DNA from: Thraustochytrium sp. TN22
Taxonomy: Eukaryota > Sar > Bigyra > Thraustochytrida > Thraustochytriidae
Direction: 5' to 3'
Assembly: GCA_013306675.1 (NCBI GenBank)
Contig: JABLUY010000077.1
Span: 62,001 to 126,000, forward strand
Length of the DNA: 64,000 nucleotides
The translations under genes and the position numbers were made by a program. Each line of letters starts with the position of its first letter. The stretch's first letter is position 1. Of this stretch, positions 34,723 through 61,104 are shown in pieces. The notes under the pieces were generated by a model. The model did not search any database. It was given only the letters and a program-made list of their open reading frames with translations, and had not been told where the DNA came from.

Positions 34723-35095
34723 GCACTTGAGCGCTCTTGTGCACGGCTGAGAGCGCTGCACTGTTGATAGCGCCGCCGCGCTTCTTCGGCGCCTTAGGCG
34801 CCAGCGAGACTCGGAGCCATAGCACTGGCACCAGCACGCAGCACTTGAGCGCTCTTGTGCACGGCTGAGAGCGCTGCACTGCAGGTGTGCATGGTTGAGA
34901 GCGCCGCCGCGCTTCTTAGGCGCCTTAGGCGCCAGCGAGACTCGGAGCCTTAGCACTGGCACCAGCACGCAGCAGCAGTAGTACAACAGGCAGCTGCCAG
35001 TGCACTGGAGCGCTCCCACGCACGGCTGAGAGCGCCGCACTGCTGCTTGTGTGCACAGTTGAGAGCGCCGCCGCGGCGCTTACGAGGCGAGCAGC
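34723..35095. repeat. Three degenerate tandem copies of a 118-161 bp unit
   Basis: Each copy starts GCACTTGAGCGCTC or GCACTGGAGCGCTC (34723, 34841, 35002), continues with CACGGCTGAGAGCGC and, further on, GAGAGCGCCGCCGC plus GGCGCCTTAGGCGCC in the first two. The last copy ends about 135 bp before the chosen start of the membrane gene, so this is probably promoter sequence. Confidence 0.8.
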
Positions 35096-35228
35096 AGAAC
35101 CTAAACGCAGACGCTCTTGCCTGCGTGTCGCCGTGTGGCTGGCTCCTGACAAAGGAGCTGGCGACGGAGCTGAGCTGGCGACGGCGCTGAGGTCGAAACG
35201 GCAGCGCGCCAGGGGCGCTGCTCGCGCG

Positions 35229-38200
35229 ATGGGCTGGCGACGAAAGGAAGAATGGCAGGAATGGCAGGTGGGGCCGTATCGCGCCGATGAGGCCGGCGAG
35301 TATCCGCAACGCAGCAATGGCAAGTGCACGAGGCTTCGCAGCAAGTGCAACAGGCAGAGTGTCCTGAAGGCCACCAAGTGGCTGGTCTTCGCCACGACGG
35401 CGGTGAGCAACCTGGTCTTCCTCGGGACCCTCGTCTGGCTTGCCCTGCGGCTGAGCAGCAGCGACGAGGTAGAGGTGTCGGAAAGCAGTTGCCCAAGCCT
35501 CGCCGACGTGGCCAACGCGAGTTCGCCGACGGAGCTCATGTGGCTGGGTCGTTGCATCGACTGGGGCTTTATCCGGGACCCCCTCGCGCAGAGCACTACG
35601 CTTGATCCTTATGACTTCGCCTTCCAATCAGCGTACGTCTACCGTGATGCAGACGCTGCGGGCTACAGTGCCAGCACTGCAGGATGCTTTACGGACGCAG
35701 AAAGGGGCCTGAACATCTTTCTTCAGTTCTGCTGGGTGCCAATCGTGCTTGCCTGGTACATGCTGGCCAGGAAGAGCCACAAGGAGGAGGAAAAGAAGAC
35801 ATTCATCTTTCAGACGCAGATCCTGCACAAGATCTTCGCCGCGCATGTGTGGCCCAATCAGCGAGGCGAACCGACGCCTTCCCTTCCCCGACGGATTCTA
35901 ATGCAGGCTTGCTGCTGCGAGCGCGCCCGCGCGGACGAATGGCTGGACTACGGCAGCGCGCTTCAAAGTTTCGACACAGCGTGGACGCAGGAAAGGCACG
36001 AACCTGAGTTCAACTGGATGGACGAGTTGGAGAACGTCCAAAGATGGTACGAGGAGCACTTGGCAAGACTTGACTCCCCGACCGTGGACGCTGGGGATGA
36101 CCTCACGTCCTTGCCAGACTCCACGCCCGAAGACGATGAGGATTTGCATGAGAGAGAGGCCAAGGCGCAACAGGTTTCTATCGTCCTGCGGACGCTGGAC
36201 GAGGAGTGGCACCGCATGCAAACTCGATTTCGGTTGCGGTGGTGGCTGAAGCGCCTCTTTTGCTGCCTTTGCCGCCTTCGCCGTGGCGAGAGCGTGCAGA
36301 GCACCGGAAGTGGACAAGGCAGATCTGCTCGAGCGCCCGCGGAACACAGAGAAGAAGACTTAGCCGCTGGCCTGGAGGGGCCCGTGCGCAAGACTGCAAG
36401 GAATCTTCTCCGCCAGCATATGTGCCAGACATTCTTCTGGGGCCTCGTGACGCTGACTACTTCCAGCGTGAGTCTCGGCATCAGTATCTTCGAAACGACC
36501 CGCGCCTTCGCCGTGTACGGCGAGGACGGCCTCGACTTCGTCTCGGCAGTGCCAGCCTGCCCAAGGCTCTCCGACGCACTGCCAGTGGGCGGTCAGGTCT
36601 TCTTCTCCGGGGAGTGCAGGAACTGGACGGACGTTAGGGAGGTCTTGGTCGTCATCGAAGATGGCCTCGACCTTGTCAACCTAGGCGGCCAGCTCGCAGA
36701 CGCGGTTCACGACGCGGCAGCCCTGCTCGAGGATCTGGGGCATCTAGCGAAGCTCGTCAGGCAGACCACGCAGTGCGTGACGGAGGTCCCGTCGGTCGGT
36801 ACCAACCTCAACGCCAAAGTTTCGCTCCTCGTATTCTTTGGTCCTGCGGCAGCGATCTTCCGCCAACTGCAAGCCGGTCATGGAGGCGGAGGCGGAGACG
36901 GAGACGAAGACGGAGGCGGAGGCGGAGGCGGTCAAGGTTCAACAGGGTCAGGTTCAGGTTCACAATCTTCGCAAGCCAATGATGGAGGCGGAGGCGGAGG
37001 CGGTCAAGGTTCAACAGGGTCAGGTTCAGGTTCACAATCTTCGCAAGCCAATAATGGAGGCGGAGGCGGAGGTGGAGGCGGTCAAGGTTTAAGAGGGTCA
37101 AGTTTAGGGTCGCAAGCCAATCGTGGAGGCAGAGGCGGAGGCGGAGGCGGTCAAGGTTCAACAGGGTCAGGTTCAGGTTCACAATCTTCGCAAGCCAATG
37201 ATGGAGGCGGAGGCGGAGGCGGAGGTGGAGGCGGTCAAGGTTCAGGTTCAGGTCGAGGCCGGGACCAAGGTTGGGACAAAGACGGAGGTTCGGGCCCAGG
37301 TCCGGACGTACACGACCGAGGCACGTTCCTAGACGGTGGAACACGCCCAGTGTCAGAGCTTACGCCACACCCTGGTCGAGATTCCGACCATGATCGTACG
37401 CAGCCTCCTCGGCCCGCACCACGGCCTGGACCTCCACCCCTACCTTGGTTCCGATCTGAGGCTGATCGCACGCAACCTCCTCGGCCTGAACCCGAACCTC
37501 GGCCTGGACGTTTGCCTAAACCTCCGCCCCGACTTTGGTTCCGACCTGGACCTTGGCCTGAACCTCCGCCTCAACGTTGGCGCGGACTCGGACACGAACC
37601 TACACCCCGACCTGGGCCCCGACCCAGGCCCCGACGTGGCCGTCGACCTCGGCCTGGGCCCCCTTCCACGTTGGGCCCATCGCAGACTTCCACGTTGGTC
37701 CCATCGCCGCCACATAATAGATACTGGTTGCCCTGGCGGCTAGTACTGTTCTTGATTGCTTCGCCACGACTTGACAGGAGGGATACAACCAGGTCATCGG
37801 AGTCACGCGAGACACAAGAGCACGCTGACCACGACAATGTGGAGACCGTGACGTCATGGTGGCCGTTGCTGCGATCTCCAAGGTCTCCACGAAACTGCAG
37901 GGTTCACAGTCGGCCCGTGGAGAACAGGGATGGACGCTGCGCAGTGTGCAGGGATCCGTGCGTACGGTGCATGGGTACCACTCAGGCCTTTCTGCTCCCA
38001 ACACGGGAGGAGTGCAGAAGTCATTGGTGCGCCAGGCACGGTCAGGCAGCCGAGGGGACTCGAAACGACGGCCTCTGCGCGATGTGTCTCGAAGGCAAGT
38101 GCATGGACAGTGAGCACACGGACATGAGGGAGGCGCCGTTGCGACGCGAGTGCAGCACGCACTGGTGTTTCGCGTCACAGCACCGTCTGAAAGGCGACGA

Positions 38201-41200
38201 GGGCGGCTTTCGCCAGCCGTGCAAGACCTGCCAGGATCCATGCATGATGTGTCCGAACGGCTCGAGGAAGCCGCGTACCTCTTGCGAGGAGCACTTTTGC
38301 AGGGTCCACCTGCGGCCCAAGTCCAAGGTCCGTGCGGAGCTGCTCAAGGCCGCAAGCTGGGTTTGCGAGGCATGCGAGGACCCATGCACGCGGTGCAGGG
38401 GACCGGTGCGCCCGAAGCGCGACGAGTGCGCCGAGCATTACTGCAATATGCATGACCGACCCAAGCCGTGCCCGGTGTGCACGGATCCCTGCCCGACGCA
38501 CCGCGACAAGGCGCGCAAGGAGTGCGACGAGTGCTTCTGCAAGCGACACGAGCGCAGAAAGCCCTGCCTCGTGTGCGACGAGCCGTGCCCGAGGCATCCG
38601 AACCGCGCGCTGAAGGAGTGCCCCGACTGCTACTGCCAACGGCACAATCGTTTTAAGCCGTGTATGGTGTGCCGCGACCCGTGCCCTCAACATGCGGACC
38701 GGGCGCGCACGGAGTGTTCGACCTGCTGGTGCCTCCGCCACGCGCGAGCCCAGCCGTGTTTGGTGTGCCGGGACCCGTGCCCACAGCATGGGGACCGCGC
38801 GCGTACGGAGTGCGTCGACTGCTTTTGCACGCGCCATGAGCGCGTCAAGCCATGCCCGGTCTGCGCGCATCCGTGCCCGAACCACCCGAGCCTCGGCTTT
38901 GAGGAGTGCGGAACCTGCTTCTGTGCAAGGCACCAGCGCAGCAAGCCCTGCCTCGTGTGCGACGAGCCGTGCTCGAGGCACCCGAATCGCGCGCTGCAGG
39001 AGTGCCCCGACTGCTACTGCCGACGGCACGACCGCCTCAAGCCGTGTATGGTGTGCCGCGACCCGTGCCCTCAACATGCGGACCGGGCGCGCACGGAGTG
39101 TTCGACCTGCTGGTGCCTGCGCCACGCGCGAGCCCAGCCGTGTTTGGTGTGCCGGGACCCGTGCCCACAGCATGTGGACCGCGCGCGTACGGAGTGCGTC
39201 GACTGCTTTTGCGCGCGCCATGAGCGCGCCAAGCCGTGCCCGGTCTGCGCGCATCCGTGCCCGAATCACCCAAACCTCAGCTTTGAGGAATGCGAAGAGT
39301 GCTGGTGCGTGCAGCACGAGCAAGCCAAACCGTGCCCCGTCTGCGCGAACTCGTGCCCACGCCATCCAGACCGTGCGTTTGAGGCCTGCACAACGTGCTA
39401 CTGCCAACGCCACGCCCGCCCCAAGCCCTGCCGCGTGTGCGAGGAACCGTGCCCCACACATCCGGCCAGGGCGCTCACGGAATGCCCCGACTGCTGGTGC
39501 TCGCGGCACGGGCGCCTGAAGCCATGCGCCGTCTGCGCCCACCCGTGCCCGAGGCACCCTTACCTCGCTTTGCGCGAGTGCGAGGAGTGTTACTGCGCCA
39601 ACCACAATCGCTCCAAGCCCTGCGCTGTGTGCATCGAGCCCTGCCCACGGCACCCGGACCGAGCCTTCCAGGAGTGCGCGGACTGCTACTGCATCCTTCA
39701 CCACCGCTCCACGCCCTGCGCCGTGTGCGCGGATCCGTGCCCGAACCACGCAGACCGCGCTCGCCGTGATTGTGCACACTGCTTTTGCAGTCTCCATGAG
39801 CGCCCAACGCCCTGCGCAGTGTGCCAAGACCCGTGCCCGAACCACCCCATGCGCGTGCGCATCGAGTGCGAGGACTGTTTCTGCAGTCTCCACACCCGCA
39901 CCAAGCCGTGCGCCATCTGCGACGACCCGTGCCCGAACCACGAGATGCGAGCTCGCCTGGAGTGCTCCGACTGCTACTGTAGCATGCACGAGCGTGAGAC
40001 CCCGTGCCTCGTCTGCGACGACCCTTGCCCGAACCACGCGGACCGCGCGCGGGAGGAGTGCACGGACTGCTACTGCAGCCTTCACCACCGTGACAAGGCA
40101 TGTCCCGTCTGCGATGACCCGTGCCCGCAGCACGCGGACCGCGCGCGCGTGGAGTGCACGGAGTGCTATTGCAGCACGCACGAGCGCGCCAAGCCATGCG
40201 CCGTGTGCGCCGACCCTTGCCCGAAACACGCGATGCGCGCACGGAAGGAGTGCTCCGAGTGCTACTGCAGCCTGCACGACCGCGTCACGCCCTGCCTGGT
40301 GTGCGATGACCCGTGTCCGAACCACGCGGATCGAGCTCGCGAGGAGTGCCCCGACTGCTTCTGCGGCGAGCACGCACGCAGCAAGCGCTGCCTCGTGTGC
40401 GATGACCCGTGCGGCTGCCACCCTGATCGCGCCCTGCCCGAGTGCGCCGACTGCTTCTGCGACCGCCATGACCTCGCCTTTTGCGAGCCGCCCGAGCCGT
40501 GCAAGCAGGGCTACTGCCCGCAGTGCCACTGCCTCATGTGCAGGCGCGAGATGGCCGAGGATGAGGAAGTCTGCGCGGACCGCAGATGCTTGGAGTGCCA
40601 GGGCAAGTGCTGGCCCCACGCCGTCCAGATGGAGGAGTGCGAGGAGTGCTACTGCAAGAACCACGACAAAGAGCGCGACTGGCACTTTGAATGCGCTGAG
40701 CACCACGAAAAGCTCGAGGTCTGCTACGCCAAGGAGCACGAGGCGGGTCGCGAGGCGCAACGCGTCTGCCCGAGGCATCACTTGGTGCTCAAACAGCTCC
40801 ACGGCGGCAATCTCAGGTACTGTGACCAATGCCCGACTTTCCCGGTCCCTCTCACCAAGACGCGCTTCTGCAAGCTCGCGGCTAAGCTGCACAACTGCAA
40901 CGAGATCCTCCAGCGTCAGTCGCAGCCTCGGCGGCCTTCGCTGTTCTCCGGCTCCTACGCCAGAGAGAGGGCCCAACGCGCGGGGGAAGAGGAGAAGCTG
41001 TCCTGGCAGCAGATTTGGCGGCACGTCGCCCGCCACGGCGCAAACCGCGAGACCCTTAGTGTGTTTACACATGGCGGCCGAGCGCACACGACCGGTCCTC
41101 TGGACCCGGAGACCGAGCGCTGCACAAAGGCCATCTGCGCTGCGCTCAATGCCATTCAGGGTCTAGAAGGCGACGCCAGCGACCTGATGCCGCTCACCTC

Positions 41201-41834
41201 CATGGCATACAACGAGTGTTGTCCGGATGCTCACGTCGAGCCGCAGCCGGGCACCGAGTCGCCACCAGACGCCAGGTCGCAGGCAGACGCCGACTCGCAG
41301 GCAGACTCCGAGTTGGAACCAGACATCGAGGCGCAGTCAGACGCCGTGCTGCAGCCGGATGCTGCTGCAGCGCGCGTACCTTGGATCCTCGCCGGCGATG
41401 GCTTCCGCTTCAAAGAGACGAACGTACGCTCCATTCTCATGCGCCGAGCGCCTGCGGTCGACCCTTCCGAGCTCCGAAAGCGACGCTACAAGAGCCACGT
41501 CATTCGTGAAATCTTCGAGAAGGCGTCCACGCTCAACTGGCGCAAGGATGCCGAGAGCGAAGAGGACGACCCCATGCTCGATCATTTGTACCTTCCCGAC
41601 GACGCCAACACCGGCGACGTGCTCGAAATGGCCTACTTCGCCTCGTTGTGGCGCGAAAGGAGTCAAACCAACTCCACCGGACAGGGGCCCGCCTTCGAGC
41701 TCTATTCCCTCGAGAACCTCGAGCGGCAGCTCAGCCCTGATATTTTTGCCGCGGTCATGGCGCTCGTCGACAGCAAGTCACTCGACGATCTTGGTAGACC
41801 CCCTGGCCGTCGAGTCGAGCCACGACGACAGTGA
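35229..41834 (+). CDS. Four-pass membrane protein with 21 Cys/His-rich repeats
   Basis: Single exon. I start it at the ATG at 35229 (MGWRRKEEW), giving 2201 residues; the frame is open from 35049, but that part runs over the upstream tandem repeats. Hydrophobic segments lie at about 50-74, 159-180, 398-420 and 527-545. The two loops between them carry conserved cysteines and Asn-X-Ser/Thr sites (NASS, NWTD), which suggests they face outward. A Gly/Ser/Gln-rich repeat (about 551-676) and a Pro/Arg-rich stretch follow. From about 903 comes a Cys/His-rich region: four irregular units, then 21 regular 32-residue repeats at 1079-1750 with C-x2-C-x3-C-x2-H-x7-C-x2-C-x-C-x2-H, then more CxxC clusters and a conserved tail (PLTKTRFCKLAAKLHNC). 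Eight possible zinc ligands per repeat suggest two metal ions each. The gene at 45118 is a clear paralogue. Function unknown. Confidence 0.88.
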   Translation: MGWRRKEEWQEWQVGPYRADEAGEYPQRSNGKCTRLRSKCNRQSVLKATKWLVFATTAVSNLVFLGTLVWLALRLSSSDEVEVSESSCPSLADVANASSPTELMWLGRCIDWGFIRDPLAQSTTLDPYDFAFQSAYVYRDADAAGYSASTAGCFTDAERGLNIFLQFCWVPIVLAWYMLARKSHKEEEKKTFIFQTQILHKIFAAHVWPNQRGEPTPSLPRRILMQACCCERARADEWLDYGSALQSFDTAWTQERHEPEFNWMDELENVQRWYEEHLARLDSPTVDAGDDLTSLPDSTPEDDEDLHEREAKAQQVSIVLRTLDEEWHRMQTRFRLRWWLKRLFCCLCRLRRGESVQSTGSGQGRSARAPAEHREEDLAAGLEGPVRKTARNLLRQHMCQTFFWGLVTLTTSSVSLGISIFETTRAFAVYGEDGLDFVSAVPACPRLSDALPVGGQVFFSGECRNWTDVREVLVVIEDGLDLVNLGGQLADAVHDAAALLEDLGHLAKLVRQTTQCVTEVPSVGTNLNAKVSLLVFFGPAAAIFRQLQAGHGGGGGDGDEDGGGGGGGQGSTGSGSGSQSSQANDGGGGGGGQGSTGSGSGSQSSQANNGGGGGGGGGQGLRGSSLGSQANRGGRGGGGGGQGSTGSGSGSQSSQANDGGGGGGGGGGGQGSGSGRGRDQGWDKDGGSGPGPDVHDRGTFLDGGTRPVSELTPHPGRDSDHDRTQPPRPAPRPGPPPLPWFRSEADRTQPPRPEPEPRPGRLPKPPPRLWFRPGPWPEPPPQRWRGLGHEPTPRPGPRPRPRRGRRPRPGPPSTLGPSQTSTLVPSPPHNRYWLPWRLVLFLIASPRLDRRDTTRSSESRETQEHADHDNVETVTSWWPLLRSPRSPRNCRVHSRPVENRDGRCAVCRDPCVRCMGTTQAFLLPTREECRSHWCARHGQAAEGTRNDGLCAMCLEGKCMDSEHTDMREAPLRRECSTHWCFASQHRLKGDEGGFRQPCKTCQDPCMMCPNGSRKPRTSCEEHFCRVHLRPKSKVRAELLKAASWVCEACEDPCTRCRGPVRPKRDECAEHYCNMHDRPKPCPVCTDPCPTHRDKARKECDECFCKRHERRKPCLVCDEPCPRHPNRALKECPDCYCQRHNRFKPCMVCRDPCPQHADRARTECSTCWCLRHARAQPCLVCRDPCPQHGDRARTECVDCFCTRHERVKPCPVCAHPCPNHPSLGFEECGTCFCARHQRSKPCLVCDEPCSRHPNRALQECPDCYCRRHDRLKPCMVCRDPCPQHADRARTECSTCWCLRHARAQPCLVCRDPCPQHVDRARTECVDCFCARHERAKPCPVCAHPCPNHPNLSFEECEECWCVQHEQAKPCPVCANSCPRHPDRAFEACTTCYCQRHARPKPCRVCEEPCPTHPARALTECPDCWCSRHGRLKPCAVCAHPCPRHPYLALRECEECYCANHNRSKPCAVCIEPCPRHPDRAFQECADCYCILHHRSTPCAVCADPCPNHADRARRDCAHCFCSLHERPTPCAVCQDPCPNHPMRVRIECEDCFCSLHTRTKPCAICDDPCPNHEMRARLECSDCYCSMHERETPCLVCDDPCPNHADRAREECTDCYCSLHHRDKACPVCDDPCPQHADRARVECTECYCSTHERAKPCAVCADPCPKHAMRARKECSECYCSLHDRVTPCLVCDDPCPNHADRAREECPDCFCGEHARSKRCLVCDDPCGCHPDRALPECADCFCDRHDLAFCEPPEPCKQGYCPQCHCLMCRREMAEDEEVCADRRCLECQGKCWPHAVQMEECEECYCKNHDKERDWHFECAEHHEKLEVCYAKEHEAGREAQRVCPRHHLVLKQLHGGNLRYCDQCPTFPVPLTKTRFCKLAAKLHNCNEILQRQSQPRRPSLFSGSYARERAQRAGEEEKLSWQQIWRHVARHGANRETLSVFTHGGRAHTTGPLDPETERCTKAICAALNAIQGLEGDASDLMPLTSMAYNECCPDAHVEPQPGTESPPDARSQADADSQADSELEPDIEAQSDAVLQPDAAAARVPWILAGDGFRFKETNVRSILMRRAPAVDPSELRKRRYKSHVIREIFEKASTLNWRKDAESEEDDPMLDHLYLPDDANTGDVLEMAYFASLWRERSQTNSTGQGPAFELYSLENLERQLSPDIFAAVMALVDSKSLDDLGRPPGRRVEPRRQ
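36880..37260 (+). repeat. In-frame Gly/Ser/Gln-rich tandem repeat in the membrane gene
   Basis: About four units of 70-75 bp, each a GGAGGCGGAGGCGG block followed by GGTTCAACAGGGTCAGGTTC and a SQSSQAN-encoding end. The third unit is diverged. The G-runs are regular enough to form G-quadruplexes on this strand. Confidence 0.9.
38463..40478 (+). repeat. 21 tandem 96-bp units encoding 32-residue Cys/His repeats
   Basis: All 21 units are exactly 96 bp without any length change and keep all eight Cys/His positions. Units 2-5 (38559-38942) and 6-9 (38943-39326) are close copies of each other as a block, so a 384-bp four-unit segment was duplicated after the single units had diverged. Confidence 0.95.
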
Positions 41835-42232: not shown

Positions 42233-44392
42233 ATGGTGAGCGGCGCGGCGGCGGCGCGGTGCGCGCGCATCGCAGAGCCCGCCGCCGCGGCCGCACGTAT
42301 CGTCGACCTGACGGAGGACGACCCTGACATCATCATCTTGCTCGACTCCAAGGAGAGGGACGTAACCACCACCACAGGCTGCGGCGAGGACCTGGAGGAG
42401 GACGCATCGCGCGAAGCGAAGACCGAGTCGAGGGGCGGCGACGCTGCGCGCAGCCCAAGACGAGCCACCGAGCCCGCGCAGCAGACCGACGCGGCGATCA
42501 AGACGGAGGTGGAGTGCTGCTCCAGCAGCAACGAGAACGCGCGGGACTCGGAGCCCCTCCTCGCCATCGCCGCGGCAGGGAACCTGCAATCCGACGACGT
42601 CGGCGACGTCGCCGTGTATGAGCGAGACGCTGCGGTGGATGCGTCGCCAGAGCCGCTCAACGAGGTTGATGTGCAGGAGCGGCCGCAGCTCATCGATGCA
42701 GAGCCGCTCGATGAAGCGAGGGCGCAAGTCATCGCGTCGCTGGAGGAGGTGCTGCAGACAGCGGCGACGAGCCTCAAGAGACTGCGCGCGAAAGCAGACA
42801 CGCCAGGCGGCGCGCAAGATGAGATGCAGCTTGAACTAGGGCTTGTCGAGTCTCAGGTGCGCCGCCTGCGGTCAGCTGGGGCGACGATGCTGGAGGATGA
42901 CTTTGACGAGGAAGTGGTCCTGACGCAAGAGAAGATCGTTGCGCTCCTGGGCCGTATTCGAGAGGAGATGAAGCGTCTGGCCGCTGTCCGCCGCAGCCTT
43001 CGCAAGCCGTGCGTCGCGTTGGAGCAGGGACCGGAGGACGGGCGCGTTGCGCGAGAGTTGGCGGCTGCCGAGGAGCGCGGGCGAGACGGCCAAGGGCAAG
43101 CGCGCGAGGTTGCAATCGCGGGCCCCGCTCCGGATTTGCTCGTGCAAGGCAAGGCCAAGCAAGCCGCCCCTGCCACGCCTGCGCCCGGACGAATCGTGCC
43201 GGCGACTCCAGAGCGCGGCACCCTCACCACGTCCGAGTCTGACGAGAGCGACGAGACACGCGCGGCCGCTGCCGACGAGCGCAGGCGAGACGGCCAAGGG
43301 CAAGCGCGCGAGGTTGCAATCGCGGGCCCCGCTCCGGATTTGCTCGTGCAAGGCAAGGCCAAGCAAGCCGCCCCTGCCACGCCTGCGCCCGGACGAATCG
43401 TGCCGGCGACTCCAGAGCGTGGCACCCTCACCACGTCCGAGTCTGACGAGAGCGACGAGACACGCGCGGCCGAGTCGCGCGCCGTCGAGAGTGCCACCTC
43501 ATGGCGAAGGCAGGACCCGAAGCGCGCAGCGATTGCCGCTGCCTGCCTCATGACCGAGGTGAACCGCAAGGACGGCTTGGCGCAGCGACGTGCCCTGGAT
43601 GCCGTGATCAAGAAGCTCAAGTCGAGGACGCCGGCCGCGAGGGACGAGGCCAAGAGGCAAAAGATCATGGCCAGGGTCGCGAAGCGCAGCGCGCGGTCGC
43701 GCGCGGACCAGCAAAAGGACAAGGACCTCCGGCTTCGGCGGCGCATGGACGAGTCGAACCAGAATTTGCAAGGCCTCCTGAGGCTGCCGCTGCAGCAGGA
43801 CGTCGCGGAGCTGGAGGAGAAGCGGGTGCTCTACGCGATGGCATCCAGGACCGTGACCGCGTCGGCGCGCAAGTTTGGGGTGGCGCAACTCCGCGCCGCC
43901 GCCGCCGTGCAGGGTCGGCCGCAACCTCATGCTGCCGCCGGCGGCGAGCAACTCCACCACATTCGCGGTGCACCGCAGCCTGCACAGCAGCGAGCAACCC
44001 AGCAACCGAGAACCACCGGCCTTCAGCCTGCCAGTGGTGGTGGCGCGCCCGGAGCTGCGTCGCGAGACATGTGCGACCCTGCGACTGCAAGTCCGCTGAT
44101 GAGTCCGGCCACTCCTAGGCCAACCACTGGCAGTGCGTCGAAGCGCGGGCCGCGCGGCCACGACTCAAACCACTGGCAGCCACCGACTCCTGCTACCGTG
44201 ACCGTGACCAGCAGGGAGAACTTGAAGCTTGCCAATGCCAGCCACGGCGTCGAGCCACCCACTGGCACTGGCACGGGCAGATTTGAGCCCGATTTGCAGG
44301 CCGAGCTCGATCTCGAGCGAGCAATCGAGCTCCAGTGGCAGGCGGAGGAAGCCGCAGCCCGCCAGACCGACCTCCTCGACGAACTGGCATGA
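42233..44392 (+). CDS. Probable nuclear protein with SUMO-interaction-like motifs
   Basis: 719 residues from ATG at 42233. Near the start, IVDLTEDD at 23-30 and IIILLDSKE at 33-41 look like two SUMO-interacting motifs: a hydrophobic core next to acidic residues, as in SUMO-targeted ubiquitin ligases; no RING finger follows here. A helical, acidic middle (ASLEEVLQTAATSLKRLRAK) leads to two nearly identical 68-residue units (DNA 43081-43475) ending in TPERGTLTTSESDESDE. The C-terminal half is basic and helical (RRALDAVIKKLKSR, RDEAKRQKIMARVAKRSARS, KDKDLRLRRRMDE), then Gln/Ala/Pro-rich, with a final acidic helix (DLERAIELQWQAEEAA). I recognise no family. It lies between the two zinc-repeat membrane genes on the same strand. 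Nuclear location is inferred from the basic stretches and SIM-like motifs. Confidence 0.75.
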   Translation: MVSGAAAARCARIAEPAAAAARIVDLTEDDPDIIILLDSKERDVTTTTGCGEDLEEDASREAKTESRGGDAARSPRRATEPAQQTDAAIKTEVECCSSSNENARDSEPLLAIAAAGNLQSDDVGDVAVYERDAAVDASPEPLNEVDVQERPQLIDAEPLDEARAQVIASLEEVLQTAATSLKRLRAKADTPGGAQDEMQLELGLVESQVRRLRSAGATMLEDDFDEEVVLTQEKIVALLGRIREEMKRLAAVRRSLRKPCVALEQGPEDGRVARELAAAEERGRDGQGQAREVAIAGPAPDLLVQGKAKQAAPATPAPGRIVPATPERGTLTTSESDESDETRAAAADERRRDGQGQAREVAIAGPAPDLLVQGKAKQAAPATPAPGRIVPATPERGTLTTSESDESDETRAAESRAVESATSWRRQDPKRAAIAAACLMTEVNRKDGLAQRRALDAVIKKLKSRTPAARDEAKRQKIMARVAKRSARSRADQQKDKDLRLRRRMDESNQNLQGLLRLPLQQDVAELEEKRVLYAMASRTVTASARKFGVAQLRAAAAVQGRPQPHAAAGGEQLHHIRGAPQPAQQRATQQPRTTGLQPASGGGAPGAASRDMCDPATASPLMSPATPRPTTGSASKRGPRGHDSNHWQPPTPATVTVTSRENLKLANASHGVEPPTGTGTGRFEPDLQAELDLERAIELQWQAEEAAARQTDLLDELA
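43081..43475 (+). repeat. Near-identical 204-bp tandem duplication in the SIM-like gene
   Basis: Two direct copies with period 204 bp (43081-43284 and 43285 to about 43475). Over the shared 190 bp I see about one substitution (GAGCGCGGC versus GAGCGTGGC). The length is a multiple of three, so the frame is kept. Confidence 0.92.
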
Positions 44393-45117
44393 CTCTGTGC
44401 CAATGTAAGTAGCCAATGTTTTGCGCAAGCCCGGGCTTTTTGTTTGGTTGCCGTGCGGTGCGGTGGAGAGCGTGCTGCGCGAAGTACTCATTTGGAGGTA
44501 CCCGGTACCATGGTATGGTACCGCTGTGATTGGAGCCTGGCTGGGTCCGGCGCCTCCCGGACTCCGGCCGCGGAGGAGGCCACGCCGCCACGGGCTCGGA
44601 CTCAGGGCGCGAACGCTTGACTGTAGTACTTGCAAGGACTCCGGACCCGACGGGAGCTCACGCTGCGCAGGTTCTTGCTCTCGAAAGGGCTGGCGTAATT
44701 CTCGCTTCGCTCTCCAAGTCGTGACGCGACGTGGCCGCTCTCAAGCCACGGCACGTCGAGTTTGAGGCCTCCAAGCTACCAAGGCCCAGGCCTCAAGTGG
44801 CGCAACACAGGACAACCCGGCGGGCCGGCGGGCCGGCGGCGGGGTTGCGCTTGGCATGACTGCTCGCTCCTAAGCTACTTCTACGGCGTGGCCGCCAGTC
44901 TCGCGAGATCAGGATCGACCTGGCTGCTGCGGCGCGTGAAGATCGGGCCCGCGCCAGGCTGGTGGCCGCGCCGACCGCGACACTTTCGCGCTCGCCTCGG
45001 CGCTTCCACGCCGCCGCCGGCCCGCGCAAGCCCGCGAAAGCCTCGGTCGCAGCCACTGGCCGCGAGCAAATGCGCAAAGGTCCGCGGAAGCTCGCTCCCT
45101 CTGCAAGGCCGGCGACC
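44393..45117. other. Intergenic region upstream of the second zinc-type membrane gene
   Basis: Contains three GGTACC sites within 25 bp (44497-44522) and a CGGGCCGGCGGGCCGGCGG run near 44820. The frame of the following gene is open back to 44962, but that part is Ala/Arg/Pro-rich. No separate gene seen. Confidence 0.55.
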
Positions 45118-48100
45118 ATGGACCCGGCGGGCGTGCCCGAGCTGGAGGACGGGAGCGGCGGCAAGTCCGCGGGCACCAACATAATGCGCGCGGACCGGTG
45201 CCGAAGGTTGCACTGGATTGGCGCCGGCGCCAAGAGATGCGCGCGGCCATGGACGCAAGGCCGAACTTGGTGCCAGATCTTTGCGCTGGTGACCTCCTTC
45301 GTCGCGCTGGTGCTCGACCTGGTCTTTTTGGGCATCTGGATCGCTCTGGTCGCGCGCCTGGGTGCTTCGGAAGCGGGCCCCGTGTCGAGCGACGAATGCG
45401 TAGGCCTGCCGGCGATCGCGCAGGCCAACATCACCACCGAGATGTTGTGGCTTGGCCGCTGCATCGATGTCGGCGAGTTGCGCGACCTCTTGAGCCAGAG
45501 CACCGGCCTCAGCCCGTACGACTTCTCCTTCAAGGCCGCGTATGCGTGGGACACGGACGCCCAACGTGACGAGGCCGCTGAGCTATTCAGCAGCACAAGC
45601 GGTTGCTTCGACGAGTCCGCCGCGGCCTTGAACGTCCTTCTTCAGCTCATCTGGGTGCCTCTCCTCGCCACCTTTGCCTACGCATCGTCGCGTGCACGCA
45701 AGGGTGAGCAAGCCTTTCGTATCTTCCGAGCCAAGCTGACTGCAAAGGTTCTCAAGACCGACGTCTGGCCCTTCCCTCGTTGGCGGAGGTGCAGCTGGTA
45801 TGTGCGCCGCGCGCTGTGCTCTCGCAACAAGCAGTGGCTCGAGTTCGACGAATATCTGGAAAGCTTCTACCAAAAGTATGCAAAGCTCGACGACGAGCCC
45901 GAGACTGGATGGCCTGCCGAGCTTGACAACGTGTGGCAGAGCTACGTCCACTTACAGGGCTATCCAGACATGGAGAGGATGGAAGATTCAGGCGGAGCCA
46001 ACCCGCAAGAGCGAGACGCTACGAAACTCTACGAGGTCCTGTTCTCCGTGGACAACGAGTTTTTCCGTACGAGAAAATGGTGGCGGCCCTGGTGGAAGTC
46101 GTGCTGGGAACGAGTCTTGCGCCTTTTGAAACCCTGCTGGGACCGAATCCTGTGGCCCTGTGTGAACCCCTGCCGGGAGCGTGTCCTGCAGCACTGCTTG
46201 CGGCCCTTGGGGAGATGCATCCTGCAGTGCTGGCAACGCTGGCGCGGCCGTGGGGGGGAAGACCTCGGCGACTCCCAAAGGGAACGAGCGATTAGCTCAG
46301 GGGCGGAGCCAGAACGGCCGAACCATCAAGTGAATCCTCGCGTCGTTTCCGACAAGAGGAGCTGGGGAAGCGACGAAGAGGACGGGTCCAACCCGGAGGA
46401 CGACACCGAAACCCACGCTGCGCCGTACAAGCCTGCCGGCACTTACCGATACGTTGTGTTCAGGCGTCTCTTGCGAGCGTGGCGCACGACGCGCTTTTGG
46501 TTGGTTTTGTCCTTCCTGAGCGTCGCGCTGAGTATGGGCGTCAGCATTGTGGAAATCACGCGCGTCTACTCCCCTACTGAAGCGGAAGAAAACCTTGGGA
46601 TCCCATCCTGCCCAAGGCTCTCTGACGCTCCGGCGGCGGCCCAGGTGCTGTTTGGAGGCCTCTGTGAGCCGTGGATCGAAGTTCAGGCGGTGCTGCGCAT
46701 CATCGAGGACGCCGGGGCGCTTCTGGACCAGGGCGGTGACCTCGCCAATGCCGTGGCCGATGCCACAGACCTGCAGGAGTACCTGAGCCCACTCCAGCGG
46801 CTCTTTGCGCAGATGAGGGAGTGCGCCGCGAGGTCTCCTTCGGTGCGCTCTGGAGCAGGGGCAAAGCTGGCCTTTCTCATTCTCTTCGTGCCGCTCGTCA
46901 GCCAGTACGGCAAGTCCAACATCGACCGCAGCAAGATACAACCCCGCGAAGGCGGTGCGCCTCCTCAGGGTCGGCCTCCTCAGGGACGCCGTCGTCGTAG
47001 GAGACGGTCAGCAAGCGACGACCACCCCCACCCGAATCCCGGGAGCGACAGCGACGAGGACGAGGATGTAAGCAACGATGACAATAGCCAGCAAGGTGGG
47101 CCACGCGACTTCCCGGAGCCTCCGCCACGCGACTTCCCGGGGCCTCCGCCACGCGTCTCGAGACGGCCACGGCGTTCGGCCCGTCGCAGCCGCAGGTCAG
47201 GCCGGCCAAACGACGACGAGGACCATGGCGATCCTCCTGCAGCCGATGATGCCTACGAGTCGGAACCCAGCGACTCCGTGGAACCACCTGCCGACGACGA
47301 GTCGGAAGCAAGCGATGATGCCCCAGATCTGTGGTGTTATGAGCACGAACGTGAGACCGACGACCACAGCGACGGCCACTGCCTCGTGTGCGAAGACCCG
47401 TGTACGCGCTGCGAAGGCAAGGGAATCCACGGCGCGCGGCTTCCTGCGCGCGAGGAGTGTACGGAGCACTGGTGCCAGGACCACGATCGTGCAGCGGAGG
47501 AAGGCAAGGTCGGCGAATGCATCGTCTGTATCTACGGGTTATGCTCCGACCACGGCGACGATGAGGGCCCCGTGGCTCGGCGCGAGTGCGACCTGCACTG
47601 GTGCTTTGACGCGAAGCACGAACGCATTGGGGATGGTGGCCTGCACAAACCCTGCGACACGTGCCTCGACCCGTGTGGGGCCTGTGTGGACGGCCACAAG
47701 TTGCCCCGGACAAAGTGCCCGGAACACTTTTGTGCCGACCATCAGCGGGACAAGCCCTGCCACGTGTGCGATGATCCTTGCGCATGCCATGCAGACCGCG
47801 CACTCCAAGAGTGCGTCGATTGCTTCTGCGCGCGCCATGACCTGCCCCTCTGCGAGGACTTCGACAGCTGCCAGAATGGCTTCTGCCCGCGGTGCAACTG
47901 CCCCATGTGCAAACGCGCCTTGCGGGACGGAGAGGCGCTCATGGAGAACGGCCGCTGCGAGGACTGTCAGGGCAAGTGCGACCACGGCATCCAGCTGGAG
48001 ACCTGCAACATTTGCTGGTGCGAGGAGCATGCAACAGCACGTGGGCCGCGCCTTGTCGACTGTCCGGACTGCGGTGGAGAATTTGAGACGCTTCCCGCAG

Positions 48101-49065
48101 AGACGTTACGCTTCTGCGGGGGCAAGCCACTCTATATTCCGCTTCCCCTCACCAAGACGCGCTTTTGCAAGCTCGTCGCCAAGCTGTACAACTGCACCGA
48201 GATCATCAAGAATGGAAACATCTCGGATGACCAAAAACTCAAGTGGTGTGAGGTCTGGAAGCACGTCAGGCGGCACGGGAACAACCGTGCGGCGATGTCA
48301 CGGCAGACAACTTTCGTGACAAGCGGAACTCCAGTTGAGGCCAGATACAGCTTCGCGATTCGTGCCACAAGTGCGGCCCTGAGGGACGGCACTTTTCAGC
48401 ATCTACTGCATGCCCCGGGCAACCGGTGCTGTCCAGAGCTAAGAGAGACGCCCATTTGCCTGGGAACTCCTTGGGTCCTGAACGATTCAAGCTTCGTGAC
48501 CGCGCAGAACGCTGTCAATATCATCCTTGGGGACGCCAGCGAGAGGGCTCCACATCAACGCCCAGACGAGAAATTTGGGAATGGTGAAGTGCGACGTGCC
48601 CTGACTTCGCGGTTCAAACCGCCCAACACATGCGGAAACGAGGACGAGGCACCCCCTACCTTTGACTCAGACCCGGGAGACGGCGAGGAAACGCGACGCT
48701 GGTGGATTCAGGGTGAGGATGAGGAGTCTGTCGAGCCGATGTTGGACAAGCTACAGATTGAAGGCGACGACAGCGACATCCTCGAGCTCGCCTTCTTCGC
48801 ATGGCTCAGCGGTCATTCACGTCTACAGGGCGAAGGCGAGGTCGGTGACTACTATCGATATCTCGATCTTCCATTCCTCAAGAAGTACCTAGAGCCTGAA
48901 GTCTTTGAGAAGATCGGAGCCCGTCTTAACACGCCTGGTCCTCCTGGCGAGTCAGAAGTTCACCGAGCTTCGCGCATCATGGACGAGCTGCGTGAAGAGA
49001 TGAACACCCGCGACCGCGAACCACGAGACTGCTCCTGTGATGATCCACACCACACTACAAACTAA
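45118..49065 (+). CDS. Four-pass membrane protein with Cys/His-rich tail, short-array paralogue
   Basis: Start chosen at the ATG at 45118 in GCGACCATGG (MDPAGVPELEDG), giving 1315 residues. It follows the gene at 35229 through its length: TM1 (FVALVLDLVFLGIWIALVA), an outer loop with ELLWLGRCID-like LWLGRCIDVGELRDLL and SGCFDES, TM2 (LLQLIWVPLLATFAYA), a cytosolic stretch, TM3 (SVALSMGVSIVEITRVY), a second loop with IPSCPRLSDAP, TM4 (AKLAFLILFVPLVSQY), an Arg/Asp/Ser-rich linker instead of the Gly-rich one, then the Cys/His region. Here only one regular 32-residue repeat exists (KPCHVCDDPCACHADRAL), flanked by the irregular units (CLVCEDPCTRC, CPRCNCPMCKRAL). The tail PLTKTRFCKLVAKLYNC and a final acidic domain are shared. 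It probably shows the ancestral layout before the 21-fold expansion. Function unknown. Confidence 0.88.
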   Translation: MDPAGVPELEDGSGGKSAGTNIMRADRCRRLHWIGAGAKRCARPWTQGRTWCQIFALVTSFVALVLDLVFLGIWIALVARLGASEAGPVSSDECVGLPAIAQANITTEMLWLGRCIDVGELRDLLSQSTGLSPYDFSFKAAYAWDTDAQRDEAAELFSSTSGCFDESAAALNVLLQLIWVPLLATFAYASSRARKGEQAFRIFRAKLTAKVLKTDVWPFPRWRRCSWYVRRALCSRNKQWLEFDEYLESFYQKYAKLDDEPETGWPAELDNVWQSYVHLQGYPDMERMEDSGGANPQERDATKLYEVLFSVDNEFFRTRKWWRPWWKSCWERVLRLLKPCWDRILWPCVNPCRERVLQHCLRPLGRCILQCWQRWRGRGGEDLGDSQRERAISSGAEPERPNHQVNPRVVSDKRSWGSDEEDGSNPEDDTETHAAPYKPAGTYRYVVFRRLLRAWRTTRFWLVLSFLSVALSMGVSIVEITRVYSPTEAEENLGIPSCPRLSDAPAAAQVLFGGLCEPWIEVQAVLRIIEDAGALLDQGGDLANAVADATDLQEYLSPLQRLFAQMRECAARSPSVRSGAGAKLAFLILFVPLVSQYGKSNIDRSKIQPREGGAPPQGRPPQGRRRRRRRSASDDHPHPNPGSDSDEDEDVSNDDNSQQGGPRDFPEPPPRDFPGPPPRVSRRPRRSARRSRRSGRPNDDEDHGDPPAADDAYESEPSDSVEPPADDESEASDDAPDLWCYEHERETDDHSDGHCLVCEDPCTRCEGKGIHGARLPAREECTEHWCQDHDRAAEEGKVGECIVCIYGLCSDHGDDEGPVARRECDLHWCFDAKHERIGDGGLHKPCDTCLDPCGACVDGHKLPRTKCPEHFCADHQRDKPCHVCDDPCACHADRALQECVDCFCARHDLPLCEDFDSCQNGFCPRCNCPMCKRALRDGEALMENGRCEDCQGKCDHGIQLETCNICWCEEHATARGPRLVDCPDCGGEFETLPAETLRFCGGKPLYIPLPLTKTRFCKLVAKLYNCTEIIKNGNISDDQKLKWCEVWKHVRRHGNNRAAMSRQTTFVTSGTPVEARYSFAIRATSAALRDGTFQHLLHAPGNRCCPELRETPICLGTPWVLNDSSFVTAQNAVNIILGDASERAPHQRPDEKFGNGEVRRALTSRFKPPNTCGNEDEAPPTFDSDPGDGEETRRWWIQGEDEESVEPMLDKLQIEGDDSDILELAFFAWLSGHSRLQGEGEVGDYYRYLDLPFLKKYLEPEVFEKIGARLNTPGPPGESEVHRASRIMDELREEMNTRDREPRDCSCDDPHHTTN

Positions 49066-57938: not shown

Positions 57939-59017
57939 TCAAAAGACGGAGTCGTCCTTGCTCTTGGCGCGCTGGATGGACTTGAAGCGGGACTTGACAC
58001 CATTTTCGGTGCGGCCCGGCAGGCTGCGCTTGATCTCAGCCCACTTGTTGCCAATCTTGGCGTGGAGATGGAGGAGGATCTGGTCCTCCTGATCGGTCCA
58101 GGGCCCGTGGTTGATGGAGGGGTCGAGGCAGAGGTTCCAGCGCTCGCGGCACTGCTTGGCGGTGCGGCCGGGGATGAGCTCGGCGATCTTGGTCCAGGAG
58201 CGGTCGTTGCCCTGTTGCTCGAGGAGCTGGAGGAGGTGGTTGTCCTCCTCGCGGGACCACATGCCCTTGACGAGGCCGGGCTGGAGCACCTTCTTCCAGC
58301 GCTGGAGGCACTGCACGTGGTTGCGGCCCTCGACGCACTGGGCGATGGCCTTCCAGTTGGACTCGTTGTACTTGGTGACGGCGCGCTTGAGCTGGTCATC
58401 CTGCTTGGCGGTCCAGCGCTTGCCAGCGATCTTGGAGCTGCCGACGCGGAGGGCGCGCAGCGGGTCGCGCGTGCAGCCGGGCGCGGGCGCGTAGGGCAGG
58501 CGGCTACCGGAGCGCTGGGCGGCAGCCACCACGTCGGGGCGGGCGTCCGCGAAGGAGCTCGTGGCGCTGCCGCTGGGCGAAATGGAGCGCTGCTGCTGCT
58601 GCTGCTGCTGCTGGTGCGGTGCGGGCGCGCCGAAGCTGTGCGCGGCGGTGCTGATAAAGGCCGGCGCGCCGTAGTGCGAGGGGCGCGCGACCTTGGCGGC
58701 GGGCGTCTGCGGTGCGGAGCCGGCGGGCGCCTTGCGCTTGAGCGAGGGCATGGCGGCGCTGCTGCTCGTGGTGGTGTCGGTGAAGGGGGCGGCGGCGCTG
58801 GCGGCGAAGTCCGCCATCATGTCCCGAAAGGTGAGGTCGTCGGCCTCGAGGCCGATCGAGCCGAGCGGCTGGAAGGCGTCCGGCATGTCGAGCGGCGCTG
58901 GCGTGGGCTCGAGCGTGCCTTCGAGGGCCGCGGCGGCGTCGGCGGCGGCGTCGAGGTCCAGGTCGAACAGGTAAGCACCGCCGCTGCTGTTGCGGTGGTG
59001 GCCGCTGCGGTGGCTGC

Positions 59018-59064
<47 letters not shown>

Positions 59065-59606
59065 GTGCTCGTCCCGAGGGCGCCGTTGTCGCCGAGCGAA
59101 GCGCCGTTCGCGGTGAGAGCCGACATGATGTCGGCGGCCGTGGCAGAGGCGGCCAGCAGCTCCGCCTTGGTGTCGCGGTTGTTGTCCGCGAAGGATTCGT
59201 TGGCGAGCGCAGGCGCCTCGCTGCCGTAAAAGCCGAAGGCGTCCAGGCCCGGCACCAGGTCGTCGTCGAAGTCCTGCGCGCGGGCCTCGAGGCCGAGCGA
59301 GCTGGGCTCGGCGAAGAAGAAGGCGGCACCGCGGGGCGAGCTGTGGCCGACCATGGGCGGCGCCAGCTCGGTCTCAATCTTCATGGCGCTGCCGTCGAGC
59401 GCTGGCAAGTTGAGCGGCTCGAGCTCCAGCAGGAGGTCCAGGCCGCTGCCCTGCCGCTGCGCCTGCTGCGCCTGCTGCGTCTGCGACTGCTGCGCCGCGA
59501 GCGCGCGCCTCCTGGTGACGACGCCCTGCTGCTCCGCGAGCTTGCGCGTCTCCTCGAGTGCCGCGGCGGCGCGGTCCGCCGCCGCCCTGTCCTGCAGGAG
59601 TTGCAT
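57939..59606 (-). CDS. Three-repeat (R1R2R3) MYB transcription factor
   Basis: The start is probably the ATG at 59606 (MQLLQDRAAADRAAAALEE), giving 555 residues; the frame stays open to 60392, but that extension is Arg/Ala/Ser-rich. Three MYB repeats fill the C-terminus: R1 at about 394-446 (GKRWTAKQDDQLKRAVTKY), R2 at 447-499 (GMWSREEDNHLLQLLEQQ, RTAKQCRERW) and R3 at 500-545 (GPWTDQEDQILLHLH, RTENGVKSRF). The helix-spacing Trp residues are all there except the last of R3, which is Phe. Such proteins bind MYB sites (AACNG-type) in DNA and, in plants and animals, often regulate cell-cycle genes. The region before is acidic and rich in Ala/Ser/Asp (DLTFRDMMADFAASAA), a likely activation region, with polyglutamine tracts at about 182-197 and 331-338 and a possible nuclear signal (PSLKRKAP). 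MYB domains at the very C-terminus are unusual for this class. Confidence 0.92.
59014..59064 (-). repeat. CAG/CTG repeat encoding polyglutamine in the MYB gene
   Basis: About 16 uninterrupted CTG units on the plus strand (CAG on the coding strand). A shorter tract of about eight units lies at 58590-58613, and another in the first codons upstream of 59606 (about 59609-59627). Confidence 0.95.
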
Positions 59607-61104
59607 GCTCTGCTGCTGCTGCTGCTGCCGCTCGCCGGCGTCAGGTGCGGTCGGCGCCGCGGAGGGTTTCGCGGCGCGGGGTTGCGTTTCCTGCGTGCTC
59701 GGTTCGCCGGCGCGGTCCTTCGTGCGAGTGCTTTGCTTTGCTTCCTCGCTTGCTTGCTTGCTTGCTCGCTCGCTTCGGGTTCTGCTGCCTCTTCCTGCCT
59801 CTTCCTGCCTGCCTGCCTGTGACCGGCTGGCTGCGCCTGCTCTCCTGCGCTCTCCGCTGGCTAGCGCGCTCCGGCTCGCCGGGAGCGGGCGGGAGCGGGC
59901 GCGTTGACGGGCGGTGGCTGCGCGACGGCGCGGCTCTCGCGCGTTGCGGCCGCTGGCGCGGCCTGGCAGGCGCGGGCGCGGGGCGCGCGGGCGCGCGAGG
60001 GCTCGAGTCGAGCGGCCGGCGGGCTTGGCTTGGCTTGGCTTGGCTTGTCCTGGCTCGGCCGCTGATGCGCGATGGCTGCCGCGCTCGGCCCCTGCGTAGG
60101 TAACGCGCGCGAGCGAGGGAGGAGGCCGCCGCGGCGCGCGGGCGGGCGGGCGGCGCGGGGGCGGGCGGCGCGCGGGCGCGGGGGCGCTGCTGCTGCTGCT
60201 GCTCTCGCGCGCGCGGGTGCTGCTGGCGCGGCTCGAGGTTGCTTGACTGCCGCCGCTCGATCGGCCCACGCCGCTGTCAAGCAGCCGCGGTTCGCCGCGC
60301 CTCGCTCGAATCCCGTGCCGCAACGCGCCGCTGTCCCCAGCCGCCGCCGCCGACGCGCGCGCTGCCCCCCCGCTCGGTCTCACAGCCAACAAGCCACGTG
60401 CGCCGTGACAGACCGCCGCAGCGGAGACGGCAGACGGACGCGCGGGACGCCGCGCCGCGGAGCGAGGAGCGAGAGCGGCAGCGAGGCTGGCGAGACGCGG
60501 CCGCGAGAGCGAGCGGGAGCGCGGGAGCGCGGGAGCGCAGGGCGCAGAGCGCGGAGCGCGGAGCGCAGAGCGCAGAACTTCGGATTAGTTCGAAAGAAAG
60601 AGAGAGAGAGAGCAGGGAGAGCGGTCGGAGCAGCCGAGTGAGGCTGCGGCGTGGCGCCGATGGGACTCGCCGCGGCGCCCGCAGAGCACGCGCGCTCCGC
60701 GCTGCGCGGCGGCGAGCTGAGGAGCGGAACCTGCCTCGCGCCGCCAGACGCGCGTCTTCAGACGCAGGCCTTGGTTGCGCCAAGCACTGGTCTCCGCGTC
60801 GGCCATCCCTCCCCTCACCACGTGGCCAGTTGGCAAGCTGGTTTCCAACTCACCCAAATCCCAGGAGACGCGAGCAAGTGCAAAGTATGAATGGCTTCTG
60901 TGTCAAGCGCCACTGTGAGAAAGAGCGCCAAGAGAGGAGGCTAGTCAGAGGAGAACATGGGACAGCGCGGCGCAACAAGGCTCTCTGTCACGGCACTGCT
61001 GAACCCCGGACCCCAGCGAGGCCGATGCCGCTGCGGCATCTCGATTCACCCGCGCTGCGTCGGCCTCGCGCGCCGCGGCCGGCGGCGGGGCAAGCGCGCG
61101 GCCC

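Follow-up and report, generated by a model that had tools for sequence, protein, structure and literature searches.

The protein coded by a gene of Thraustochytrium sp. TN22, here named WA, carries 21 consecutive 32-residue units with eight Cys/His residues each, and the features of the unit make it very probably a metal-binding module. The array lies at positions 38463–40478 (+ strand) of the window, a stretch of 64,000 nucleotides (contig JABLUY010000077.1, positions 62,001 to 126,000) with a GC content of about 64%. A pattern scan finds the 21 matches to C-x2-C-x3-C-x2-H-x7-C-x2-C-x-C-x2-H in a single open frame with a period of exactly 96 bases and no gaps, and all 168 candidate ligands are present. 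The coordinates and counts of a sequence-only reading that had pointed to the gapless repeats are thus exact. By comparison with the sister genes, which still carry one or two such units, the array is an amplification of older units. The family is unrecognised in Pfam, NCBIfam, PDB, viral, prokaryotic and phage data, and it may be widespread or named elsewhere.

Array conservation and organization of WA

The 21-row alignment of the units has 32 columns, of which the eight ligand columns (six Cys and two His) are all invariant and the other 24 are not. Eight invariant columns placed at random would fall on exactly the ligand columns once in 10.5 million, a figure obtained by post hoc arithmetic. 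The ligand codons have no non-synonymous difference over the 210 unit pairs, while the minor synonym occurs in 24 of the 168 (TGT 13 times and CAT 11 times). This absence of ligand replacement despite synonymous change argues for selection for metal-bound folding. Such selection had been proposed from the sequence alone and is well supported by the ligand codons, none of which is replaced, and by the upkeep of other residues: position 25 is aromatic and position 5 is V or I in all 21 units, V5 and P9 are each found in 20, and E20 in 19. Positions P2, P11, A17 and R31 are also conserved, and this set of kept non-ligand positions points to a fold rather than to a loose chelator. A period that stays at 32 residues throughout the 21 units argues for a regular stack.

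DNA sequences of the units differ by up to 47%, which suggests that much of the array is old, save for a recent four-unit block duplication (38559–39326, +). The latter relates units 2–5 (38559–38942) to units 6–9 (38943–39326), whose matching members are 90, 99, 97 and 77% identical. Rough dN/dS values of the non-ligand codons (Nei-Gojobori) are about 0.53 over all unit pairs and 0.62 between the two blocks. The array has a net charge of -1 over its 672 residues. Note that charge follows a gradient along the array, units 1–8 summing to +13 and units 14–21 to -15. A 970-residue antisense frame overlies the array (38175–41087, -), presumably produced incidentally by the GC-rich repeats.

The WA open reading frame (35049–41834, +) codes for 2261 residues from a GTG and needs no intron. 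Its first in-frame ATG is at residue 61 (35229) and is the likelier start, the organism being a eukaryote. Hydropathy predicts two transmembrane segments, TM1 (35376–35453) and TM2 (35709–35768), while the probable TM3 (36429–36494) and TM4 (36813–36869) are below the hydropathy cut in WA and are placed by likeness to the paralogue WB, in which four segments pass the cut. The proteins C1, C2 and C3 coded by contig C27 have more hydrophobic stretches than WB. These profiles suggest that WA is a multi-pass membrane protein with four or more predicted passes. A linker follows (36879–37934) whose translation is largely of low complexity, first Gly-rich and then Pro/Arg-rich. It precedes four longer degenerate Cys/His units common to the paralogues (37935–38462; alignment and parse of halves), mostly C-x2-C-x3-C-x2-C-x(10-14)-C-x2-H-x-C-x2-H. 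The array ends with unit 21 (40383–40478), which by likeness stands at the place of the single WB unit. Next comes a shared Cys-rich end (40482–40673) made of a C-x5-C-x4-C-x2-C-x-C-x2-C element and one further unit of an A and a B half (see below). The Cys/His-rich region, which extends past the array on both sides, totals 168 Cys and 67 His in 971 residues. The C-terminal region (40848–41834) starts with PLTKTRFCKL and has no Pfam match; all five paralogues share its first part. Four MSCRAMM models aligned to the C-terminal part (E 0.039 to 0.33) are far below cut-off.

Loop composition provides a topology for WA and WB. In both proteins Lys and Arg account for 12–23% of the residues in the N-terminus, loop 2 and the tail, three parts that lack N-glycosylation sequons, and for 4.8–7.0% in loops 1 and 3; loop 1 has a sequon in both proteins, whereas loop 3 has one in WA but not in WB. 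The positive-inside rule assigns the side rich in Lys and Arg to the cytosol, and loop charge together with sequon placement therefore suggests that the tail bearing the array is cytosolic. In WA and its four paralogues the predicted extracytosolic loops 1 and 3 (TM1–TM2 and TM3–TM4) look alike by eye, each with a Leu/Asp-containing start and then G-x-C. This likeness suggests an old duplication of a hairpin carrying a small Cys module.

Gene family, array origin and neighbouring loci

Three single-protein searches of the genome assembly (37.9 Mb, 453 contigs), with array-end, C-terminal and N-terminal queries, retrieve the same five genes, match counts being lower bounds. WA and WB are found in the window, while C1, C2 and C3 follow one another on contig C27; all five are single uninterrupted frames. 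The array-end query gives one further weak match on contig C431 (E 0.038, 24% identity). WB (44962–49065, +; 1367 residues) has its parts in the order of those of WA and carries a single perfect unit (47752–47847, +), which agrees with the one unit that the sequence-only reading had attributed to it. Perfect units number 21 in WA, one each in WB and C1, and two each in C2 and C3. When WA units 1–20 are omitted, Cys/His columns align across the family from the longer units (four in WA, of which WB lacks one) over the one perfect unit to the Cys-rich end, and PLTK[TK]RFCK follows the Cys/His region in all five proteins.

Unit 21 corresponds in position and sequence to the unit of the sister genes. 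It shares 24 of 32 residues with the WB unit and 21 with the best other WA unit, while the nearest match of each of the other 20 WA units is another WA unit (20 of 20). Unit 21 clusters with the units of WB and C1 in both FastTree trees (support 0.951 for DNA and 0.896 for protein), and in the protein tree this cluster also takes in a C2 unit and a C3 unit; the trees are built from very short sequences and many nodes are weakly supported. By count and by nearest match, these 20 units are extra copies in WA. They form no single clade, units of C2 and C3 being interspersed among them in both trees, so that the extra units may stem from more than one older unit. Ligands are kept outside WA too: between C2 and C3, 131 of 133 Cys/His are kept in the Cys-rich region, with a dN/dS of about 0.26.

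The units are composed of four-ligand halves, termed A and B. A regular-expression parse counts 130 of them, with 52 in WA, 11 in WB, 17 in C1, 25 in C2 and 25 in C3, although it misses some degenerate halves, for example one in WA. A halves are mostly C-x2-C-x3-C-x2-[CH] and B halves C-x2-[CH]-x-C-x2-H, a tight spacing that is partly built in, as the parse permits short inner spacers only. Linkers between detected halves range from 5 to 55 residues, the longest perhaps spanning missed halves. Odd halves also occur, namely CEDCFCAIH in C2 and C3 and a terminal run that has three halves in these two proteins and two in C1. In all five proteins the element C-x2-C-x-C-x2-C stands without an A half but has two more Cys upstream, which prevents it from counting as a solitary half in the strict sense. 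Alignment A3 contains six long units. In five of them ligand 4 is Cys and ligand 6 is His, which reverses the order in the 32-residue unit while retaining six Cys and two His; in the sixth, a WB unit, both ligands are His. The arrangement of halves suggests that the half is an evolving piece, compatible with one ion per half.

Other loci were noted in the course of the work. A 719-residue frame without Pfam match lies between WA and WB (42233–44392, +) and contains a direct 68-residue repeat, at residues 276 and 344, with at most three mismatches. Five tandem paralogues at 2563–29657 (-) code for 1268–1487 residues, with best local matches 33–58% identical; they have hydrophobic stretches by eye, and two of the five have weak leucine-rich-repeat matches, one of them over cut-off. 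A sixth paralogue lies immediately upstream of the window and is truncated where the retrieved sequence stops. These genes represent a second local gene-family expansion. A frame at 57939–60392 (-) codes for three Myb DNA-binding repeats (E 3.7e-41). Contig C124 has a 3044-residue frame that scores 2539.7 bits with the omega-3 PUFA synthase model PfaA, which in 14 control genomes gave partial matches in 11 and none over cut-off. A second large frame nearby on the opposite strand matches part of the same model, and such an arrangement of PUFA synthase genes is a thraustochytrid trait. Together with the long unbroken frames in DNA rich in GC, it points to a thraustochytrid genome.

Searches for known families and models of the unit

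The whole WA protein matches no Pfam family at E up to 1. Six WA stretches searched to a maximal E of 10, in a range where HMMER filtering suppresses the majority of matches with E over 0.1, return two families only, both at chance level on three units (Peptidase_M7, E 1.1; CIAPIN1, E 2.7), and no RING, zinc-finger or C2H2 family. NCBIfam has no family for the array. The earlier statement that its spacing fits no described family holds as far as the Pfam, NCBIfam and PDB libraries reach. A profile search of the repeat, which had been put forward as a check, gives nothing significant among PDB sequences. Profile A2 finds a cysteine-knot peptide (E 7.2) and Fpg glycosylase (E 2.6), the latter with its register kept for pairs 1 and 3, profile A3 finds the aragonite protein AP7 (E 1.6), and WB finds a DUF521 protein (E 0.58), all at chance level. 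Pattern matches in collections of viral contigs (28) and of prokaryotic genome contigs (13) yielded none that was confirmed, and tblastn against phages gave no match; the virus and prokaryote collections have little bearing on protist relatives. Searches of open-licence literature, judged by titles and abstract openings, list nothing on the array motif or the family.

AlphaFold2 models reach a pLDDT of 45 for three units (19 alignment rows) and of 67 for one unit (29 rows), values that are not high enough to establish a fold. The one-unit model, which is of moderate confidence, retrieves no PDB chain in Foldseek. Three ligand pairings modelled in torsion space all satisfy a home-made geometry model. 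The best of 12 starts each totals 33.9 for the sequential, 30.3 for the cross-brace and 26.5 for the nested pairing, the totals being too close and the starts too few to rank them. The short spacers within halves, the variable linkers between them and the odd halves suggest one ion per half. Cross-brace pairing would agree with the chance-level alignments of Fpg (E 2.6) and MDM2 (E 0.056), in which pairs 1 and 3 face Cys pairs of these zinc-binding proteins.

Candidate functions and comparison with known systems

The preferred explanation, to which we give somewhat less than an even chance, is that a chain of zinc-folded modules on a cytosolic tail, lengthened in tandem, serves as a multivalent protein-binding scaffold. 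In the reducing cytosol Cys/His sets of this kind hold zinc, and zinc is the likely metal for a tail predicted to be cytosolic. The eight ligands of each 32-residue unit would form two four-ligand halves that probably hold two zinc ions, giving the array a capacity of up to 42. With a period of 32 residues and a link of five residues, both fixed, the array would make a regular, stiff arm in which the conserved V, aromatic, Pro and Arg positions hold the module and the variable positions face partners. Tandem duplication in WA would have lengthened this arm, and the tail would then gather proteins at the membrane. The array, the conserved ligands, the gene family, the shared unit 21 and the 20 added copies are directly observed; the cytosolic side, the stiffness, the binding of metal, its identity as zinc and the number of two ions per unit are inferred from sequence; and the scaffold role is a conjecture, metal buffering accounting equally for the ligand counts. 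A wider proposal is more tentative: the half C-x2-[CH]-x(1-3)-C-x2-[CH], paired into 32-residue units, may define a new module family of thraustochytrid-type protists that forms a regular rod at the cytosolic side of a membrane, with some 42 zinc ions and a length set by tandem amplification. Such a zinc-held arm would be of a type absent from the sources searched. If the units fold on zinc, they would represent a small zinc module unknown to the searched libraries in a natural and regular array of 21 copies, would provide a test of long metal-held repeat arms with little hydrophobic core, and would give a first handle on a multi-pass membrane family without Pfam match or known role. They would also be a case in which a single gene among five sisters has gained copies.

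The chief rival to a protein-binding arm is a metal buffer, namely a membrane-tied, very long metallothionein-like store of about 42 zinc (or other) ions whose copies were raised for capacity. It agrees with the 168 ligands and the raised copy number but we consider it unlikely. Strictly kept non-ligand positions are not expected in a bare chelator, whereas aromatic 25 and V/I5 are each kept in 21 of 21 units. Furthermore, C-x-C occurs only once per unit (unit 21 excepted), the carrier is a long membrane protein with other conserved parts, and the long array is found in one of the five genes. A metallothionein is by definition a short protein of mostly chelating Cys with little conserved between them; membership of WA is rejected on its 2261 residues and its conserved V/I5, aromatic 25, P, E and R positions. 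The likeness lies in high Cys content and growth through internal duplication, the latter being a described route in fungal metallothioneins (PMC12508003). The metallothioneins given there (49 and 32 residues) are small compared to a membrane protein that has His-containing eight-ligand units and conserved hydrophobic positions.

A membrane E3-ligase-like role, in which RING-like cross-brace units, perhaps paired over unit borders, recruit E2 or substrates, is quite improbable. Membrane proteins bearing cytosolic cross-brace fingers are a common plan, and the top PDB sequence matches are all MDM2 RING (nine distinct sequences, E 0.056 to 0.15), although not significant. The best alignment (E 0.056, low confidence) places Cys/His of MDM2 opposite six ligands in unit 4 and opposite the two leading Cys of unit 5, so that eight array ligands are accommodated at chance level. 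This register is partial: it needs insertions of 4 and 1 residues, borrows two Cys from the next unit and leaves C7 and H8 unpartnered. MDM2, which is absent from the PDB matches listed for profiles A2 and A3, thus provides a lead for this reading but is not taken as a relative, and neither a RING model nor any other zinc-finger family appears among the Pfam families for the six WA stretches (maximal E 10).

About as improbable is a bridged zinc cluster with shared cysteines in each unit, like Zn3Cys9 of CXC domains, instead of two separate sites. Two of the eight ligands are His, a residue that is not known to bridge zinc. The C-x2-C-x-C-x2-C element shared by the ends of all five proteins speaks for a bridged cluster. 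In the part of PMC3447885 that describes it, the MSL2 CXC domain has C553-x2-C556-x-C558-x2-C561, the spacing of both the B half and this end element, and C553 bridges two zinc ions. Its splitting of the motif over two ions supports pairing across halves. The same part gives MSL2 nine Cys and no His ligands in one cluster of three zinc ions, unlike the six Cys and two His of the array unit. The CXC/TCR model PF03638 (MSL2, LIN54), which like PF00643 serves as a control, has nine matches in the genome at E<=10, eight of them over cut-off, and none in the five genes.

An array of nucleic-acid-binding fingers is very improbable: C2H2 arrays also have long tandem repeats with variable positions between fixed ligands, but the near-neutral charge of this array (net -1 over 672 residues, in spite of the +13 of units 1–8), its membrane protein carrier and the absence of a C2H2 Pfam family argue against it.

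The unit can also be compared with other zinc modules. The B-box (PF00643; TRIM proteins) likewise has eight Cys/His ligands in pairs, and most PF00643 matches of this genome sit in long open frames, as the array does. The resemblance noted in the sequence-only reading does not extend to membership. B-box spacing is C-X2-C-X7-12-C-X2-C-X4-C-X2-[CH]-X3-4-H-X4-9-H, with an additional type 2 form (PMC5533445). The array differs from the types described there: in each of its 21 units the spacer is x3 from pair 1 to pair 2 and x1 from pair 3 to pair 4. The PF00643 model, scored on the best candidates only, has at least 19 genome matches at E<=10, at least 10 of them over cut-off, all in genes other than the five of the family. 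LIM, RING, FYVE and PHD domains hold two ions each, with both sequential and cross-braced pairings known, according to the part of PMC7614390 that covers them; the array is unlike them in that no such Pfam family is listed for the six WA stretches at a maximal E of 10, where HMMER drops most matches above E 0.1. The unit belongs to none of the two-zinc fingers tested, yet it may act like them.
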